From contig CM037870.1 of assembly GCA_021292105.1 (NCBI GenBank), forward strand, positions 3,581,058 through 3,645,057: 64,000 nt of DNA, read 5' to 3'. The stretch is from Anadara kagoshimensis. Taxonomy: Eukaryota; Mollusca; Bivalvia; Arcoida; Arcidae. The notes beneath the pieces were generated by a model. It ran no database searches. It was not told the DNA's origin and worked only from the letters and a program-made list of their open reading frames with translations. Each line of letters begins with the position of its first letter. Within the stretch, counting starts at the first letter, position 1. A program made the position numbers and the translations under genes. Below are positions 50,701 to 58,772 of this stretch, piece after piece.

Positions 50701-53700
50701 TGGAGATCATCCATGACGAATTACGATTTAAAGACATGGAATATCTTAATAAACATATGGGAACGCTAGAGAAAAATGTCGGTCGTGGAGGAGATAAAAA
50801 ACTGAAACCAGAATTTGTAGGTATCAAAAACTAAAACCAAAAAAAAAAAGAAGATGAAATTAAAAATGTTATGTCCAGACACTTCTTGTTTGAAGTAATT
50901 CTCCAAATATATGTAGCACTATTTCACAAAACTTGGTGCAAAGCATCAACATTGATAGGAGATGTGCATATTGTGAACCCGAGTTGGTTTGCTTATTTTC
51001 TTAGGAGTTATTGCCCTTTGAACATAAGTGAAAATCAAAAAACAAAAAGGACCTGCTTGCAGGGCATCCTAATTCACTGAATTTGCATGTTAAAGTACTG
51101 TGTTACACAATTACAAAAAATGCAATTTTAAGATGTTAGATGTACTCTTGAGTTTCATTGTTTTGAAATGGCATTTCCATTAAATTTATCTTATTTGCAT
51201 TTTGTTCCATTTAAACATATTTTGGTCAATAGTGAAAATATAGATTTACCCTGCATCAAGTCTTGAATTATAAACCTCCACTGAGAAGAGCAGAAGTAAT
51301 CATTTGTTTGTATTGTTTGTTTTCTGCCAAAGAAGGGAACAGATCATCAATTATTTAATATTTTAATCTGTAGCTTAAAATCTTATCACAATTGATTGGT
51401 TATCAATTATATTATGCCAATGTTATCTAAATTTACTTTGTATCTTCATAAACAAATTTATTCTTTGCTAAATAAATTTGATATATATTTTTTAGGACTG
51501 TTTATCCAAAGTAAGAGACTTGTTGGAGGATAAAAAATGGGTCAGGCACTGTACCACTTGGGATGCCAAAGAGGTAGGACTTTATTGATGTCTCTAAAAT
51601 TTGTCTGTTCATTAGTTGAAAGAAATTTCCCTATAGGACCTTGATGATTTAAAGAATAGCAAAGGAGAAATGTAGCAGTCTTAGAAGCTCAGTTGGTTGA
51701 ACCTATAGTGCTGGAAGGTCCTGGGTTTGATCTCCAGTCCAACTGCATTTTTCTCCATCCTGTTTCAAGTGCATAACCTTAATTTTATTGTATCATTTTT
51801 TAATGTGGTATGTGTCACTATCTATAATGTGCTTACCCTTTTGGAGTACCCAGTTTCTCTTTCCTGTTGGAAGTTCATTTGTTTAACATAATTTGCAAGT
51901 TTTCAAAGTGTTTACTTTAATTTTGGGATTGTGATTTGGACATGGATTAGTATGTGGTTGTGATTTGGACATGGATTAGTATGTGGTTGTGATTTGGACA
52001 TGGATTAGTATGTGGTTGTGATTTGGACATGGATTAGTATGTGGTTGTAATTTGGACATGGACTAGTGTGTGGTTGTGATTTGGACATGGATTAGTATGA
52101 GATTGTGATTTGGACATGGATTAGTATGTGGTTGTGATTTGGACATGGATTAGTATGTGGTTGTGATTTGGACATGGATTGGTATGAGATTGTGATTTAG
52201 ACATGATTTAGTATGTGGTTGTGATTTGGACATGATTTAATATGTGGTTGTGATTTGGACATGGATTAGTATGTGGTTGTGATTTAGACATGGATTAGTA
52301 TGTGGTTGTGATTTGGACATGGATTGGTATGAGATTGTGATTTGGACATGGATTAGTATGTGGTTGTGATTTGAACATGGATTAGTATGTAGTTGTGATT
52401 TGGACACGGATTGGTATGAGATTGTGATTTAGACATGATTTAGTATGTGGTTGTGATTTGGACATGGATTAGTATGTGGTTGTGATTTGGACATGGATTA
52501 GTATGTGGTTGTGATTTAGACATGGATTAGTATGTGGTTGTAATTTAGACATGGATCAATATGCTTGTTTGATCTTTTTTTAGTGAATCTTCTAACATGT
52601 TTTTGTTTTTTGGTTTTTTTCAGATTGACATTTTGAATCAACATTTATTTCTAACATCCAAACCTGTGATATATTTAGTGAATTTGTCAGAAAAAGATTT
52701 TATTAGAAAAAAGAATAAATGGTATGTTATTTAAACTAAATAAAAAAAGAGAATTCATATTTCTTAATTAGATTTCTGCCACTTCACTTATACCTGGTGA
52801 CTTTTCTTGACTGGAAAATAAAGCCTTATTCAAACAATCTTAATTTGATTCACTAACAGCAGGTGACTGTACTTGTACGCTTAATATTGTGTTTTCACAT
52901 CTTGGAAACAGGTCCCGGTTTCACAATTTTTCCTTAGCTAAGATTTTCCTTAACTTCAGTCTTGCAAAATTTCAAATCTTCATAATTTTGTTAATTTTCA
53001 AGATATTCAGGAGAATTTATGGTGTTATTTTTAACAGGGCTCGTACAGGCCTTGAAAAGTCCTAAAATGACCCTAAAACAGGTCTGACCCTAAAAAGCCC
53101 TTGAATTTATCCTGAAGGCCCTAAAAAGCCCTTGAATTTGGCCAGTTGGATGTCTGTAGTTCGATATTAAGTGGTTTCAAATAGACTGATTTAAATAAAT
53201 AAATTAATTAATTAATAAGTAGCGTTGAAATGAGCAATTTAAAGGTACCTGTCCCTCCTAATCGCCCAACTTCAACATCCACTTCAAGTGTTGTTACTAT
53301 GGACACGCAAGTAATTGTTTTATTGATTTAATTGCCTTTGCACCAATATTTTTTTGCTAAAATTGTCCCTCTGATTAGGCCTTAAGTTTGCTAATAAGAC
53401 CCTGAAAAGACCCTAAAAAGTCCTTAAATTTGGATTCCAAATGTCTGTACGACCCCTGTTTAAGAGTTATTGCCCCTTGTCCATTTCTATTAACAGTTCA
53501 TACAAAGCTATTTTCTTTAATTGTGGATATTATACAGTCGAACCTGCCTAAAAGGCCACCTCTATGTAAGGACCACCTGCTTATAAAGGCCAGTAGAATT
53601 GTGTCCCAATTGTTCTTTATTCATATTATTTGAGCCTGTATATAAAGACCACTTTTACTGGTTCCCTTGGGAGGCCTTTATAGACAGGTTTGACTGTACT

Positions 53701-56700
53701 TGTAAAATACAAGTGTATATGTTGTTTTATTTTCTTACTTAGGTTAGTAAAAATAAAGGAATGGATAGATGTAAATGATCCAGGTGCTATGGTTATACTG
53801 ATGAGCTGTGGGATAGAACTTAAATTATTTGACATGTCACCTGAAGAGAGAACAGCTTACCTCCAAGAAGCTAAGATACAGAGGTTTGTTGATACATGTA
53901 GCGGTATATACAAATCTGTATTGAAAATAGGCAATTACAAAACCAGGGTGATAAAAGTAATTGCATTTTAATTGTTGACCTTGGATGAACCTATGAGGTA
54001 ACCAAGAGAGCATACTACAATCGATTTTAGTAAATAATGTAAATTTTTCTCTACATCAGAGAATAACAGAAAATGTAAAAACAATATTAAAAATATTTTT
54101 GATGTGCTTTTTATTTTAAAAACAAAAAATAACTGTTATGTTTCAAAAATTAAAGAGGTATAATACATGCAGTTATTTAAGGAAATAGCTGGCTCTAAAC
54201 ATTAAAGACAAACATTCATCTTTGACGGGGTACATGGGGTCGTGTAACCTGCCAAAACCCTGTATAATGTTTTTGTCACCCTTCAAAGTGATACTAACTA
54301 GATCTTTTTAACTTCCATTTCGTATTTTGTGTGGCTTGTGTACGTTGTTGCCATGTTTGTTTACCGTAACTAGACGTCCGTGATGTATGAGTTACTTCCC
54401 TTATACCGCTAAACGTCGCATGCGTTTATGTACCCCGGCAGATTTCACTTGAAGGGTGACAAGGTGTATTTATACAGTATTTATAATTGTTTTGGAGCAC
54501 TAATTTTGTTTTACACATTTGTTTTTTTTTCAGTGCCCTAGACAAAATCATCGTAAATGGATACAAAGCTCTGAATCTTGTGTACTTCTTCACCACTGGA
54601 AAAGATGAAGTCAAAGCTTGGACAATTATGGTCAGTATAAGTTTAGATAAAGTTATAATTTAAAAGTTAAAGTTTTCAAGCAGTCCTGGCTTTGATAATT
54701 TCAACATTTTCTATGATGGTATATAGAAGACTATTGAAAAAGTACTTGTAATAAAAAACAAACATACTAATCCATGTCCGAATCACAATCCAGAAGCAAA
54801 GTAAAAACTTTGAAACTGAAACTGACAAGTCCGTTTAGACACATGAACTTCCACCAGGGAAGTGAGGCTATGTGCTCAGGAAGGGTAAGCACCTTTTGTT
54901 TAGCTAGCTACACCCGCCATGTATGTAATCAAAATTGTGTGAAAGGAACATGGAACTATAGGACGTCAAATATATCCAGGGCAATCCTAGTCCTCCCCAA
55001 AAGTTACCAGTCTTGTACTGTGGGACTGGATGTTATTTTAAACACTAAATTTGATCATGTAATGTTCTACATATAGAATAAATGTTGGCTAAATATTACT
55101 ATTAGGAACCTGTAGCTGTGCATTTCAACATATATCAGTATACATAAGGAGACCTACTTAGATTCAGTATACTCTGTATGTCGGTTACAGGTGAATTTAT
55201 TTTATTTCCATGTCTTTACTTTTTATAGGTTGGAACAAAAGCCCCACAAGCAGCAGGTAGAATACACACAGATTTTGAAAAAGGTTTTATCATGGCTGAA
55301 GTGATGAATTATAATGATTTTAAGGAGCTTGGAAGTGAGAATGAAGTCAAGGTAAAGTTTAGAATTTAGAGTGTAGGCATACATTTAGATGTCCAAATGC
55401 ATCTCTCTGTAGACACAATTTCGTAGCAAGTCCAGCTCGCCAGACACAAGCCAAGAGTCTACCAAATCATGTTTACATTATTTCACTGCACTGTTACAAC
55501 CGCTATTGAAATAACGACTTCTATTGAAATAATATTTCAATAGCGGTTGAGAATGCACTGAAATAACGACCACTATTGAAATAATTTCAATAGCGGTTGA
55601 GAATGCACTGAAATAACGACCACTATTGAAATTGGAAAAATTATTTCAATAGCGGTTGAGAATGCACTGAAATAACGACCTCTATTGAAATAATTATTTC
55701 AATAGCGGTTGAGAATGCACTGAAATAACGACCACTATTGGAATAATTATTTCAATAGCGGTTGAGAATGCACTGAAATAATTACCTCTATTGAAATAAT
55801 TATTTCAATAGCGGTTGAGAATGCACTGAAATAACGACCTCTATTATTTCAATAGCGGTTGAGAATGCACTGAAATAACGACCACTATTGAAATTATTTC
55901 AATAGCGGTTGAGAACTGAAATAACGACCACTATTGAAATAATAATGTCTTAAGAACTTTTTTCTACACGAATAACCTAACCGCCTATTGAATATATTTG
56001 CGATGACGATTATGTTTATCACTGCACAACCAGTGAATATGATCTTATTCGTTAATTAATAGTAATATATTTTACCATACCAAAAACAAAAGTTATAAGA
56101 GGTGTTTGTTGAGGAGCAGTCGTAATTTACCTCTGTTTTCTAATGTATAGTATATACTGGTAAGTTTATACATTAGCTTGTTTCCTATAAACAGTATATA
56201 CTGGTCAAAATTATTACGAAAACCTTGCATGTACAGCTGCATTTTTCGAATTTAAGGTGCTTTGATTTTATTATTAAGATATCCGTTTAAATATTTTTAA
56301 GAAGGGTTTTTTCTATAACATTCAGTTTATAAACATAATGAACTATAATCCATACATATTAACCGCAATTTTTTTCAGAGAAGAAAATGATAAGATATTT
56401 CAGATCTGATATATAAGACCCAAGTTAAAAATAACATTGAGCTAAATTATACAATGCATAAGTACAGGACTTAAAATCTTCTTCAATGATACATCAAAAT
56501 TGCACAGCTTGTCCAGTGTGGTTGGAGATAACTTATTCAATTTTGTTAGCTTTCTTAAATATAAAATGTAGCACTTTGCTTAAAGTATTTAGATTAACTG
56601 CAAAATAATCTAAATATGGTTGATCTTTTATTTTCTATGGCACGTCTGTACTGTCTAACGGTCAGAAGTTATCAGCCATATTTAAACGCAGCGCGCCTTT

Positions 56701-58772
56701 TATACTTTACTGACGTAGGTTGACTTAGGATATGCATAAAAGGACATCCTGATGATCAATTCTGTAAGGTTTGAGTGAAATCCCTTCAGTAGTTTGGAAG
56801 GAGTTGAAGATACAAGCTTTCTGGACGGACGGACGGCTGAACGGACAGACGCACATCCGACAACAACGTCCTTTGGATATGCATAAAAGGACTTCCTGAT
56901 GATCAATTTTGTAAAGTTTGAGTGAAATCCCTTCAGTAGTTTGGTAGGAGTTGTGGATACAAGCCCGGACAGACGGACAGACTGACAGACGGACATCGAC
57001 TATCACTATAATCCCCTTTCGGTTTCACCGATAGGGGACTAATAATTATTTCAATATAGGTCGTTATTTCAGTGCAGATACAACCGCTATTGAAATAATT
57101 ATTCCAATTTCAATAGTGGTCGTTATTTCAGTGCATTCCCAACCGCTATTGAAATAATAGAGGTCGTTATTTCAGTGCATTCTCAACCGCTATTGAAATA
57201 TTATTTCAATAGAAGTCGTTATTTCAGTGCATTCTCAACCGCTATTGAAATAATTATTTCAATAGTGGTCGTCATTTCAGTGCATCCTCAACCGCTATTG
57301 AAATAATTATTTCAATAGAGGTCATTATTTCAGTGCAGATACAACCGCTATTGAAATAATTATTCCAATTTCAATAGTGGTCGTGATTTCAGTGCATTCC
57401 CAACCGCTATTGAAATTATTTCAATAGTGGTCGTTATTTCAGTGCATTCTCAACCGCTATTGAAATAATTATTTCAATAGTGGTCGTTATTTCAATAGCG
57501 GTTGCAACACTTGCACTGATTTTTACGGAATTTTTCTTTTCCTTTGATAGATTTTTGGAAAAAAGCAGCTTTTCACTCTTTTTTGGCACCTAGGGTATTA
57601 TTTCCAAATTTGTAAATTTTAATAAATAGAGGATCTTGCATGAGTGTTTATGTAATATTGAATTTATTAAACGAGTTGAATAATTTTTTATGCAACGAGC
57701 CTTGGCGAGTTGCATAAAACATTATTCAACGAGTTTAATAAATTCAATATTGCATAGACACGAATGCAAGATTCTATTTATTATATAATCCCATAAAAAA
57801 TGTTTTTTCGTAGATTTAAAACTTGTCTTCTCATTATAAAGAAAACAGCTGATTGGCCGAAACACAACAAGCTAAGTTCACGTAAATGTGTACATGCACC
57901 AAAATTAATCCTGCTGAAATATTAAAAGTAAACAATAGTCTGTCCGCAGGATACAAAAACAAAACAAACATTTTCAATTTAAATACAATGTATCCTCTTT
58001 TTAGAAGAAAAGTACAAAAGTATCAGCTTAAATTAGAATCAACAAACAGTGTCAAATGAAACAAACATCTGTGAACCAGGTCAATCGTGTGACGTCACTC
58101 TGGAATGACTTGTATGCTTTTATGACGTCACACTCATTCAATACGATTTTTATTGTATGACCGTATTACATGGATTATTGAGTAGATTATATAATAAAAT
58201 ATCTTATTGGCCGTTTTATCATTGTAATAACTTGTAATGTGTCATGTTTTTGTTGCATTTGATGGTGCCAAACATATATTGTGTATTTATTTCAGCTGCA
58301 TATTTCCTTCTTCTTTTATATAATTTGAAATTATAAACATTGAAATTAGGGATGGCAATTCAATCTATAATCGCTAATCAATTAATCTTCAAATGGTCCC
58401 GGTATGTAGAATTAATTTGCTATGTACATTCTTAAGTCAAAAGTAAAAAATTAATTCACATATACACCTCGCCCACCCCATTTTGTATAAAATGACAGTC
58501 AAGTATATCGAAGATATTGGGGTACTCTAAAGTAGGACAATTTAATTTGTTATCAAAATTAAATTAAAATAATCCAAGGAATAAACAATTAATTGGTGAA
58601 TTGTCACCATTTATTTTTGAAATACACTGTACCTTTACATGTATCGACTCATCATATTTTACAGGCTGCTGGTAAATACAGACAGAAAGGCCGGGATTAC
58701 ATTGTGGAAGACGGAGATATTATTTTGTTTAAATTTAACGCAGGTGCTGGACTTAAAGACAAGAAAAAATAA
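47675..58772 (+). CDS. OLA1: Obg-like ATPase 1, complete gene of 11 coding exons
   Basis: Cytosolic P-loop NTPase of the Obg/YchF family that prefers ATP to GTP; it is linked to translation control, ribosome association and stress responses. Joining 47675-47778, 48045-48127, 48860-48920, 49522-49649, 50641-50816, 51496-51573, 52624-52721, 53743-53883, 54534-54630, 55229-55351 and 58665-58772 gives 398 codons (human 396). All introns are GT-AG and all phases join without a stop. Motifs: G1 GLPNVGKS at 30-37, G3 DIAG at 93-96, and NLSE at 230-233 replacing the usual NKxD, the change that gives the family its ATP preference. The G5-like SGA of human is SCG here (about 264-266). A C-terminal TGS domain covers about 306-389, ending [13 protein letters not shown], then a Lys-rich tail. 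The start MPPKKKDD matches human MPPKKGGD. Introns 4, 6, 7 and 10 are full of transposons and satellites, but every exon is intact. Confidence 0.97.
48045..48127 (+). CDS. OLA1: OLA1 coding exon 2
   Basis: Residues 35-62, starting with the Lys-Ser of the P-loop ([11 protein letters not shown]) and running through [13 protein letters not shown]. Acceptor TTGCAG, donor GTTAGT (weaker than consensus). Confidence 0.95.
48501..48778 (+). mobile_element. Short non-autonomous Helitron in OLA1 intron 2
   Basis: 278 bp. It begins TC (TCTAGACTG), inserted between host A and T, and ends CTAG preceded ten bases earlier by a hairpin (GTGAGCTTGTGGCTCAC, 48751-48767), which is the canonical Helitron 3' end. 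A second strong hairpin lies near the 5' end (TACCCCCGCTTAAAAAGTGG onward, 48516-48540), and 'gtctgtccatccgtcc' follows, as in many mollusc Helitron derivatives. There is no coding capacity. Confidence 0.7.
48860..48920 (+). CDS. OLA1: OLA1 coding exon 3
   Basis: Residues 63-82 with two bases of Ser83: [20 protein letters not shown]. Acceptor TTACTAG, donor GTAAGT. Confidence 0.93.
49006..49180 (-). mobile_element. tRNA-derived SINE, second copy of the 19.5-kb family
   Basis: Minus-strand A box GGCAGAGTGGTCCAAC and the body 'gtgagaaattttgtcagttc' match the element at 19440-19632. The B box is decayed. Confidence 0.5.
49522..49649 (+). CDS. OLA1: OLA1 coding exon 4
   Basis: Residues 83-125 and one base of Arg126. 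Carries the G3/Walker B segment [19 protein letters not shown] and [15 protein letters not shown]. Acceptor TTTTTTCAG, donor GTAAGT. Confidence 0.96.
49674..50047. mobile_element. MITE family C copy interrupted by a hAT-like element
   Basis: Removing 49680-49906 plus one copy of its AGTAA duplication restores CAGTAAAACCTGTGTATAAA, the standard left end of family C; the right end, an inversion beginning at 'ggtctttatagggtggtc', closes at 50047 beside TA. The order of events is therefore MITE first, hAT-like element second. Confidence 0.65.
49680..49906. mobile_element. hAT-like non-autonomous element, 5-bp target duplication
   Basis: 227 bp with ends CAGGGCTCTCGC and (inverted) CAGGGCTCTCCC, and AGTAA duplicated exactly (49675-49679, 49907-49911). 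'ttcacaat' is repeated five or six times inside. Confidence 0.75.
50124..50307. mobile_element. MITE family D copy, inverted relative to 33768
   Basis: The right end ATAATGGGGTTGAACTG beside TA is the inversion of the family's CAGTGTAACCCCATTAT, and 'tttattgccaccatttgtct' matches the interior. The left boundary is approximate. Confidence 0.45.
50440..50505 (+). repeat. SINE tail fragment
   Basis: 'ggatataagtgaaatattct' plus 'tgacta' matches the tail of the SINE at 41285-41590. Confidence 0.45.
50641..50816 (+). CDS. OLA1: OLA1 coding exon 5
   Basis: Residues 126-184: [20 protein letters not shown] through [13 protein letters not shown]. This is the start of the coiled helical domain inserted in the G domain of Obg-like ATPases. 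The donor is taken as TTT|GTAGGT, which keeps phase 0 and matches human KPEY|D. Confidence 0.95.
50860..51080 (+). repeat. Common mollusc-type repeat fragment in OLA1 intron 5
   Basis: 'cacaaaacttggtgcaaagc' and 'ggagttattgccctttgaac' are phrases I associate with a very abundant mollusc interspersed repeat; the identification is from memory of such genomes. The 69-codon frame across it is not a gene. Confidence 0.35.
51496..51573 (+). CDS. OLA1: OLA1 coding exon 6
   Basis: Residues 185-210: [20 protein letters not shown] to WDAKE, end of the helical domain. Acceptor TTTTTTAG, donor GTAGGA. Confidence 0.93.
51690..51765 (+). mobile_element. tRNA-like SINE head in OLA1 intron 6
   Basis: GAAGCTCAGTTGGTTGAAC and GGGTTTGATCTCC are A- and B-box-like at tRNA spacing. 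Only the head is clear. Confidence 0.4.
51815..52590 (-). repeat. DR1 copy whose tail has grown into a 29-bp minisatellite
   Basis: 51815-51927 is the right part of DR1 ('gtgcttacccttttggagta' to 'tactttaattttgg'). The last family motif, 'gattgtgatttggacatgga' plus 'ttagtatg', is then repeated about 22 times with a 29-bp period (51928-52562), and only after the array comes the normal DR1 end ('cttgtttgatc'). Units alternate between 'gtggttg' and 'gagattg' forms; the latter recur near 52099, 52185, 52331 and 52418, and an eight-unit block around 52185 is repeated near 52418, so growth included larger block duplications. Confidence 0.85.
52624..52721 (+). CDS. OLA1: OLA1 coding exon 7
   Basis: Residues 211-242 and two bases of Trp243: [20 protein letters not shown] then [12 protein letters not shown]. 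Includes the NLSE nucleotide-base recognition motif (230-233). Acceptor TTTTTTTCAG, donor GTATGT. Confidence 0.96.
52912..53034. mobile_element. MITE family A arm cut by the hAT-like element at 53035
   Basis: 'ggtcccggtttcacaatttt' to 'ggtgttatttttaa' matches one half of the copy at 36242-36502, and stops exactly at the insertion point of the next element. Confidence 0.55.
53035..53458. mobile_element. hAT-like non-autonomous element in OLA1 intron 7, 5-bp target duplication
   Basis: 424 bp. Ends CAGGGCTCGTACAG and (inverted) CAGGGGTCGTACAG; TTTAA is duplicated exactly (53030-53034, 53459-53463). Inside both ends there are repeated 'ccctaaaaagcccttgaatt' words. Confidence 0.75.
53535..53696. 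mobile_element. MITE family C copy in OLA1 intron 7
   Basis: 162 bp between TA dinucleotides. The left end CAGTCGAACCTGCCTAAAAG and the right end, the inversion of CAGTCAAACCTGTCTATAAA, are as in the 19651 copy, with which it is co-linear throughout. It ends only 46 bp before OLA1 exon 8. Confidence 0.75.
53743..53883 (+). CDS. OLA1: OLA1 coding exon 8
   Basis: Residues 243-289 and two bases of Ser290: [20 protein letters not shown] onward to [16 protein letters not shown]. Same length as the matching human segment. The donor is GTTTGT, a non-consensus but usable site fixed by phase with exon 9. Confidence 0.94.
54534..54630 (+). CDS. OLA1: OLA1 coding exon 9
   Basis: Residues 290-322: [20 protein letters not shown] then [13 protein letters not shown], leading into the TGS domain. 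Acceptor TTTTTTTTCAG, donor GTCAGT. Confidence 0.95.
54750..54995 (+). repeat. DR1 near full-length copy in OLA1 intron 9
   Basis: 'acaaacatactaatccatgt' to 'cagggcaatcctag' follows the family from end to end, with a small internal duplication ('gaaactgaaactga'). It starts about 120 bp after exon 9. Confidence 0.8.
55229..55351 (+). CDS. OLA1: OLA1 coding exon 10
   Basis: Residues 323-363: [20 protein letters not shown] and [21 protein letters not shown]. This is the core of the TGS domain and the best conserved stretch of the C terminus. Acceptor TTTATAG, donor GTAAAG. Confidence 0.97.
55484..57518. mobile_element. Foldback-like element: inverted satellite arms around a 1.1-kb centre
   Basis: The left arm (55484-55942) has eight ~54-bp units containing AGCGGTTGAGAATGCACTGA and 'aataacgacc'. 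The right arm (57041-57518) has eight units of the same satellite in the opposite orientation ('tcattctcaaccgct'). Each unit also contains a short palindrome centred on TTGAAATAATTATTTCAA, complete or shortened. The outermost ends pair beyond the satellite (TGCACTGTTACAACCGC against TGCAAGTGTTGCAACCGC). Long inverted repeats built of subrepeats around a unique centre are the hallmark of foldback transposons. No transposase is seen in the centre, so it would be non-autonomous. An ATTT flank on both sides may or may not be a target duplication. Confidence 0.65.
56728..57039 (+). repeat. 147-bp tandem duplication with (GACGGACA) runs and end hairpin
   Basis: 'ggatatgcataaaaggac' to 'gatacaagc' is repeated at 56728 and 56875, each time followed by gacggacg/gacagacg words, and the second copy ends in a hairpin (CCCCTTTCGG...CCGATAGGGG) followed by ACTAATAA. 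This is a common mollusc-type repeat sitting in the centre of the foldback structure, against its right arm. Overlapping minus-strand frames of ~95 codons across it are repeat artefacts. Confidence 0.65.
57622..57781. repeat. 160-bp near-perfect palindrome
   Basis: Two ~79-bp arms (left arm 'aataaatagaggatcttgca' onward, right arm its inversion ending 'tgcaagattctatttatt') meet at 57701-57702 with almost no loop, at about 85% identity. It lies 100 bp after the foldback element. Confidence 0.8.
58087..58133. promoter_or_regulatory. Inverted pair of perfect CRE sites
   Basis: GTGTGACGTCA (58087-58097) and TGACGTCACAC (58123-58133) are exact inversions, each holding the full CREB/ATF palindrome TGACGTCA, 25 bp apart. 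They lie in OLA1 intron 10 in a stretch that may itself be part of a transposon, so a regulatory role is only possible. Confidence 0.3.
58665..58772 (+). CDS. OLA1: OLA1 coding exon 11 and stop
   Basis: Residues 364-398: [20 protein letters not shown] and [15 protein letters not shown], then TAA. Finishes the TGS domain. The tail is two residues longer than in human. Acceptor TTTTACAG. Confidence 0.97.

Follow-up and report, generated by a model that had tools for sequence, protein, structure and literature searches.

The element at positions 55492-57509 of the window (the whole 64-kb stretch of DNA analysed here) is best read as a non-autonomous foldback DNA transposon, internally deleted from a larger cut-and-paste transposon that encodes an rve (DD34E)-OTU protein. 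We give this reading a probability of about 0.8. Copies of the element have common ends and 6-bp target duplications, are dispersed through the genome, and derive by internal deletion from one parent, which contains the rve-OTU gene. Judged from the sequences, the rve-OTU enzyme probably once moved the window element, and the preferred explanation ties the ends TGTTRCAACCGC to this transposase.

The element in the last OLA1 intron has opposed satellite arms

The element spans 2018 bp, and its refined edges are TGTTACAACCGC ... GCGGTTGCAACA. It lies in the last intron of OLA1, because one OLA1 exon is found upstream (~55229-55351, plus strand, reading frame followed from 55232) and the last coding exon is found downstream (~58665-58772, plus strand, limits approximate, with VEDGD at 58704). 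An earlier sequence-only reading had placed the structure in an OLA1 intron, and the two adjoining exons on the same strand confirm this.

Two opposed arms, each of ~8.5 units of a 53-bp repeat, flank a 1.1-kb centre. The left arm (55492-55943, plus strand) starts with the tip TGTTACAACCGC and continues with ~8.5 units; Tandem Repeats Finder reports 8.5 copies of the 53-bp unit at 55507-55943. The right arm (57045-57509, minus strand) holds the opposed units and ends in GCGGTTGCAACA. Here, the program finds a period of 53 bp in two stretches (57112-57307 and 57156-57494) and one of 162 bp, equal to three units, at 57045-57494. The two arms are 95% complementary over 268 nt (55533-55800 versus 57200-57467). 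Thus, Tandem Repeats Finder and the arm complementarity both bear out the opposed satellite arrays that had been described from the letters; the unit counts and the 1.1-kb centre are also as claimed, while the unit measures 53 bp and not 54 bp. The AT-rich palindrome ascribed to every unit does exist (CTATTGAAATAATTATTTCAATAG), with some units carrying only shortened forms of it. The target-site duplication reads CTGCAC on the left (55486-55491) and CTTGCAC on the right (57510-57516), the right copy having one T more.

Counting the 16-mer CAACCGCTATTGAAAT with up to 2 mismatches, we find 28 matches in the window, all of them within 55497-57504, and none in any of 100 shuffles. The element has nine copies of CAACCGCTATTGAAAT per strand, of which TGTTR precedes only the outermost.

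The predicted RNA fold of the element reaches -938 kcal/mol, compared to -424 (s.d. 11.5) for 12 shuffles, and pairs 431 of the 452 left-arm bases with the right arm when the strand is folded in isolation. The giant hairpin proposed earlier is therefore supported as a prediction, the fold being far more stable than that of the shuffles. The OLA1 copy may be an intronic passenger whose transcript can form a long hairpin.

Two other repeats lie in the window. Just downstream of the element, at 57616-57789, an inverted repeat of 86 bp, with 81% complementarity and a spacer of 2 bp, may represent a further small palindromic element. A separate tandem array with 22 copies of a 29-bp unit occupies 51929-52563.

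The window family is dispersed and flanked by 6-bp duplications

Searching the genome with the tip TGTTRCAACCGCTATTGAAA, we found 251 matches (126 forward and 125 reverse), compared to zero for the reversed control. Among the 100 ends listed, 76 could be matched into 38 facing pairs with spacings of 104 bp to 21.9 kb; the other 24 were single. An A-type tip at one end and a G-type tip at the other were seen in 37 of the 38 pairs among the ends listed; a 131-bp copy has the G-type tip at both ends. The left arm with the edge of the centre, used as a query, gave at least 94 matching pieces (40 of 251 candidates scored), and the centre gave at least 43 (40 of 125 candidates scored). The genome search that the sequence-only reading had recommended, for other loci with both arms and a common centre, thus returned many loci, and their 6-bp target duplications uphold its proposal of a mobile foldback element.

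The 6-bp target duplications were exact in 23 of the 39 copies inspected, in L019 behind a decayed tip. Four further copies (L009, L010, L023, and L041) showed a one-base mismatch between the duplications; the remaining 12 had an insertion or deletion in the duplication, a lost tip, or no match. For 28 copies, we joined the two flanks and compared them with the window and with the loci fetched, and three of these (L013, L017, and L018) match across the junction. At two related loci of 86-87% identity, the site corresponding to L017 is clearly empty and has a single GATGCAT. The match of L013 is less clear (79% identity), and the candidate junction-spanning matches of L018 reach 75-77% identity. 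The expected empty site was hence found as a paralogous one for L017; for the window copy, none exists among the window and the fetched loci. The centres of the six copies in the subfamily of the window copy show differences of 0 to 1.7%, so this subfamily spread recently.

A 28-base unit pattern has 388 + 391 exact matches in the genome, and at least one exact tip accompanies each of 14 unit clusters (14/14) among the matches listed. As far as these matches show, the 53-bp repeat is no free satellite.

Some copies have unusual arrangements. An inversion between C5:51037408 (L054) and C5:52418640 (L055) was suspected from duplications that looked swapped, and was dropped. The flanks on both sides match at ~93% in inverted orientation, and for this reason we read the two as probably one insertion within a duplicated inverted segment. 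Their elements measure 278 and 393 bp, so the array length probably changed after insertion. An 18.8-kb copy (L037 and L038; C1:15310629-15329447) has one tip of each type; on its A-type side, the units of one arm recur in six blocks with a period of 2.92 kb, and the interior of the copy seems to be repeated about six times. At C9:38352561-38354866, several arm matches lie close together, which suggests clustered or nested copies.

A 21.9-kb parent copy carries an rve-OTU gene

The longest copy (C3:67318710-67340602, 21.9 kb) is bounded by exact ATGCGA duplications. The window copy and L009-L028, 21 long copies in all, each tile on it piecewise. The tiling involves at least 10 clearly different joins, or twelve patterns counting breakpoints within 30 bp apart; the right-hand breakpoints often fall within tandem repeats and are hence fuzzy.

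The window copy is an internal-deletion derivative of this larger parent structure. The left part of its centre (55944-56505, plus strand) is colinear with the start of the 21.9-kb copy (L039, to 1282). At the first deletion junction (56505), L039 1282 is joined to 9293, and the middle part (56505-56722, plus strand) corresponds to L039 9293-9515. The second junction (56722-56724) joins L039 9515 to L040 8750, with loss of the rve-OTU region. Next come two units of a tandem repeat that is rich in GGACGGAC and has a period of 147 bp (56724-56994, plus strand); further units of this repeat are present in L040.

The reading frames of the rve-OTU gene lie at L040 3872-6409 and overlap one another, the gene being broken. 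Searching the frames of the 21.9-kb copy in Pfam, we obtained the integrase core (rve, PF00665) at 1.2e-10 and the OTU protease (PF02338) at 1.8e-5. The D, D, E catalytic pattern, with 34 residues from the second D to the E, is found in this family and in the second family described below. Against NCBIfam, whose models for this comparison are bacterial, the enzyme matched IS481 best (98.9 bits) and IS3 next (42.6 bits), both below the cut-offs. Among solved structures, retroviral integrases matched best, and for the fragment from the window family it was the foamy-virus integrase. On the minus strand at C8:1349547-1350743, we also find a remoter rve relative (36%), whose open frame spans 765 aa.

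A second family has the same tip, target preference, and arm design

The nearest genome relatives of the integrase of the 21.9-kb copy are ~53% identical and belong to a second family. The second-family gene encodes 1012 aa (rve 5e-15, OTU 2e-9). In three copies the protein is identical; others have split or shortened genes or genes with stops. In the C3 and C7 copies compared, the genes stand between inverted arrays of a 178-bp repeat. The second-family tip is TGTTACAACGC, and the tip TGTTACAAC is common to both families. The tip pattern TGTTRCAACGCATTTGGTAAC gave 102 + 104 matches, with zero in the control. Among the 100 ends listed, 33 pairs (66 ends) lie 310 bp to 16.9 kb apart, and 34 ends are single. 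All seven gene matches at 53% on C1-C7 (the query's own excluded) are located within 9 kb of a listed tip.

Exact 6-bp duplications flank 9 of the 11 second-family copies with both ends compared, a count made up of 8 of 9 pairs and the second C1 element, with C7 unmatched. The flanks of the C7 and C4:15875024 copies have no match; in the C3:33575070 copy, the right tip is no longer present. Two neighbouring second-family elements at C1:43553293-43584527 (L070-L072) are separated by one TAGCTT, and each outer edge of the pair is also bordered by TAGCTT.

Positions 3-4 of the duplication are GC in 15 of 23 cases in the window family and in 7 of 9 in the second family (6 of 8 when the TAGCTT common to the two neighbours is counted once), while GC makes up 2.7% of the dinucleotides of the window. 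The target preference is thus similar in both families, NNGCNN. Sequence from behind the tip is found again in the units, as CAACCGCTATTGAAAT in the window family and as ACGCATTTGGTAACAAAAA in the second, so the units of both families reiterate this region but not the tip. Otherwise, the 53-bp and 178-bp units have no relation in length, nor in sequence when inspected by eye.

Alternative explanations

The above observations raise the question of whether the rve-OTU gene is a passenger or a nested insert, the window family being moved by another enzyme that makes 6-bp duplications. The broken gene is the single coding copy known in the window family, and the ~6.5 kb to its left (L039 9815 to L040 3872), which include a frame that we take to be a Tc1/mariner remnant, are absent from the other 21 copies; both points would suit a passenger. 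However, L015 retains the sequence from L040 6459 onwards, 50 bp beyond the point where the rve-OTU frames stop, and the 21.9-kb copy contains no further exact tips besides its own two ends. The nearest relatives of the gene, moreover, reside in a family that matches the window family in its tip, the length of its duplications, its target preference, and the design of its arms. We therefore regard a passenger gene as improbable.

A Mutator-type foldback element (like FB, Tetris, and Tm1), moved by a MULE transposase, would have an identical architecture, and a MULE transposase frame does occur within the 21.9-kb copy. This frame sits in a 6-kb insert (L039 1415-7459) together with FLYWCH and zf-C17orf113 frames, the latter presumably hAT-like. 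However, the insert is missing from all 12 copies that keep both of its sides, and the other 9 of the 21 long copies have deletions across the insert point. The target duplications are also 6 bp long, compared to 8-10 bp in Tetris. Taken with the insert, this leaves a Mutator-type origin very unlikely.

We give even less credence to a degenerate Polinton/Maverick derivative, a type of element with an integrase, 6-bp duplications, and long terminal inverted repeats. An integrase gene is present here, and excerpts of PMC10045372 report 6-bp duplications for Polinton. Against such an origin, no Polinton-kind capsid or polymerase domain appeared in the ten L039-L041 frames searched in Pfam, and a scan found no relatives among viral contigs. 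Likewise, in two 8.5-kb pieces of second-family elements, which are 14-17 kb long in full, the frames of at least 150 aa were the rve-OTU gene and frames overlapping it only.

Finally, a local, immobile inverted duplication of a satellite, which the sequence-only reading had named as the case against itself, could in principle build satellite arms, and we dismiss it almost entirely in view of the 251 tips genome-wide, the dispersed arms with common centres, the target duplications, the empty site of L017, and the presence of at least one tip in 14/14 unit clusters among the matches listed.

Proposed mechanism of transposition and arm growth

In the preferred explanation, an rve-OTU enzyme supplied in trans would bind the motif reiterated in the arm units, and the bound enzyme would pair (synapse) the two ends of the element. 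We assume that cleavage would take place only at the outermost copy of the motif, because the TGTTR tip exists only there, and that insertion would occur at NNGCNN sites. The arms may have grown as the binding region behind the tip was reiterated in tandem, and unequal exchange or template switching may have kept the units alike. The fact that the units repeat what follows the tip but leave the tip out suggests that the arms are arrays of transposase-binding sites.

More tentatively, at somewhat less than even odds, we propose that the two families represent a new eukaryotic cut-and-paste lineage with constitutive satellite arms; in each family, the satellite would be its own subterminal binding site reiterated, born in the ends of an active transposon and used there as a binding platform. 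Such a lineage would be defined by rve DD34E plus OTU, the tip TGTTRCAAC, and 6-bp NNGCNN targets. If this is true, an integrase-type lineage with unrelated units in two families would speak for satellite arms as a repeated outcome of transposase-site reiteration. The idea of a binding array is directly testable, since the second family keeps three copies with identical intact proteins.

Comparison with known systems

Both families have the foldback architecture, which denotes a structural class and not a lineage. Drosophila FB elements have this architecture, with arms of short tandem repeats, and they have 9-bp duplications and a Mutator-related gene. The likeness to FB noted in the sequence-only reading holds for the architecture; the 6-bp duplications, the TG..CA tip, and the rve-OTU gene differ from FB and indicate a different transposase lineage. 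More generally, the Mutator-type foldback elements (FB, Tetris, and Tm1) make duplications of 8-10 bp, unlike the 6 bp found here.

According to excerpts of PMC4079207, foldback elements of known affinity are mostly of the Mutator type, with exceptions such as Galileo (P) and one other. Within the open-licence literature searched, in the portions of the papers covered, we found no foldback element with an integrase-type transposase. Tetris of Drosophila virilis, in the same excerpts, has long inverted ends that hold tandem repeats, and copies without a transposase. Its 220-bp repeats also form long satellite arrays, have 37 bp in common with the outer domain, and are proposed to be binding sites; with 8-10 bp duplications and no enzyme found, it was placed by its authors in Mutator (PMC4079207). 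In contrast, the elements described here have 6-bp duplications and a candidate rve-OTU gene, and the 53-bp unit occurs only with element tips among the matches listed.

Galileo of Drosophila, of the P superfamily, has long, internally repetitive ends, and excerpts of PMC3573991 describe secondary transposase-binding sites in one subfamily, deletion copies, and chimeric copies without matching duplications. The internally repetitive long ends and the deletion copies are features that the present elements have as well. The two differ in the enzyme and the target, with a P-type transposase and 7-bp duplications in Galileo versus an integrase-type gene and 6 bp here.

Ginger1 encodes an rve transposase, with an OTU domain in several families, and has TGTNR ends of 40-270 bp and 4-bp CCGG/CCGT duplications (excerpts of PMC2836005). 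The 5′ TGTNR end (here TGTTR) and the C-terminal protease domain, which is OTU or Ulp1 in Ginger1 and OTU (PF02338) here, are like Ginger1. Unlike Ginger1, the duplications here are 6-bp NNGCNN, and the arms measure ~450 bp or more in full copies. The Ginger1 HHCC zinc finger gave no match in either protein to a strict pattern, which could miss a degenerate motif. The strict GPY/F pattern was also without a match; HPF and VPY occur behind the integrase core.

For IS3EU/GingerRoot, excerpts of PMC10045372 report 6-bp duplications, no HHCC motif, and ends that are mostly TA..TA and occasionally TG..CA. The term OTU has zero occurrences in the text of that paper, and the excerpted description does not mention satellite-built arms. 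The 6-bp duplications and the lack of an HHCC match are shared with IS3EU/GingerRoot; the ends are TG..CA here versus mostly TA..TA there. For oyster, a satellite table lists two satellites under IS3EU and a single one under Ginger1 (excerpts of PMC8268682). In summary, compared by features, the nearest known family is IS3EU/GingerRoot, and the ends together with the duplication length make membership in IS3EU possible.
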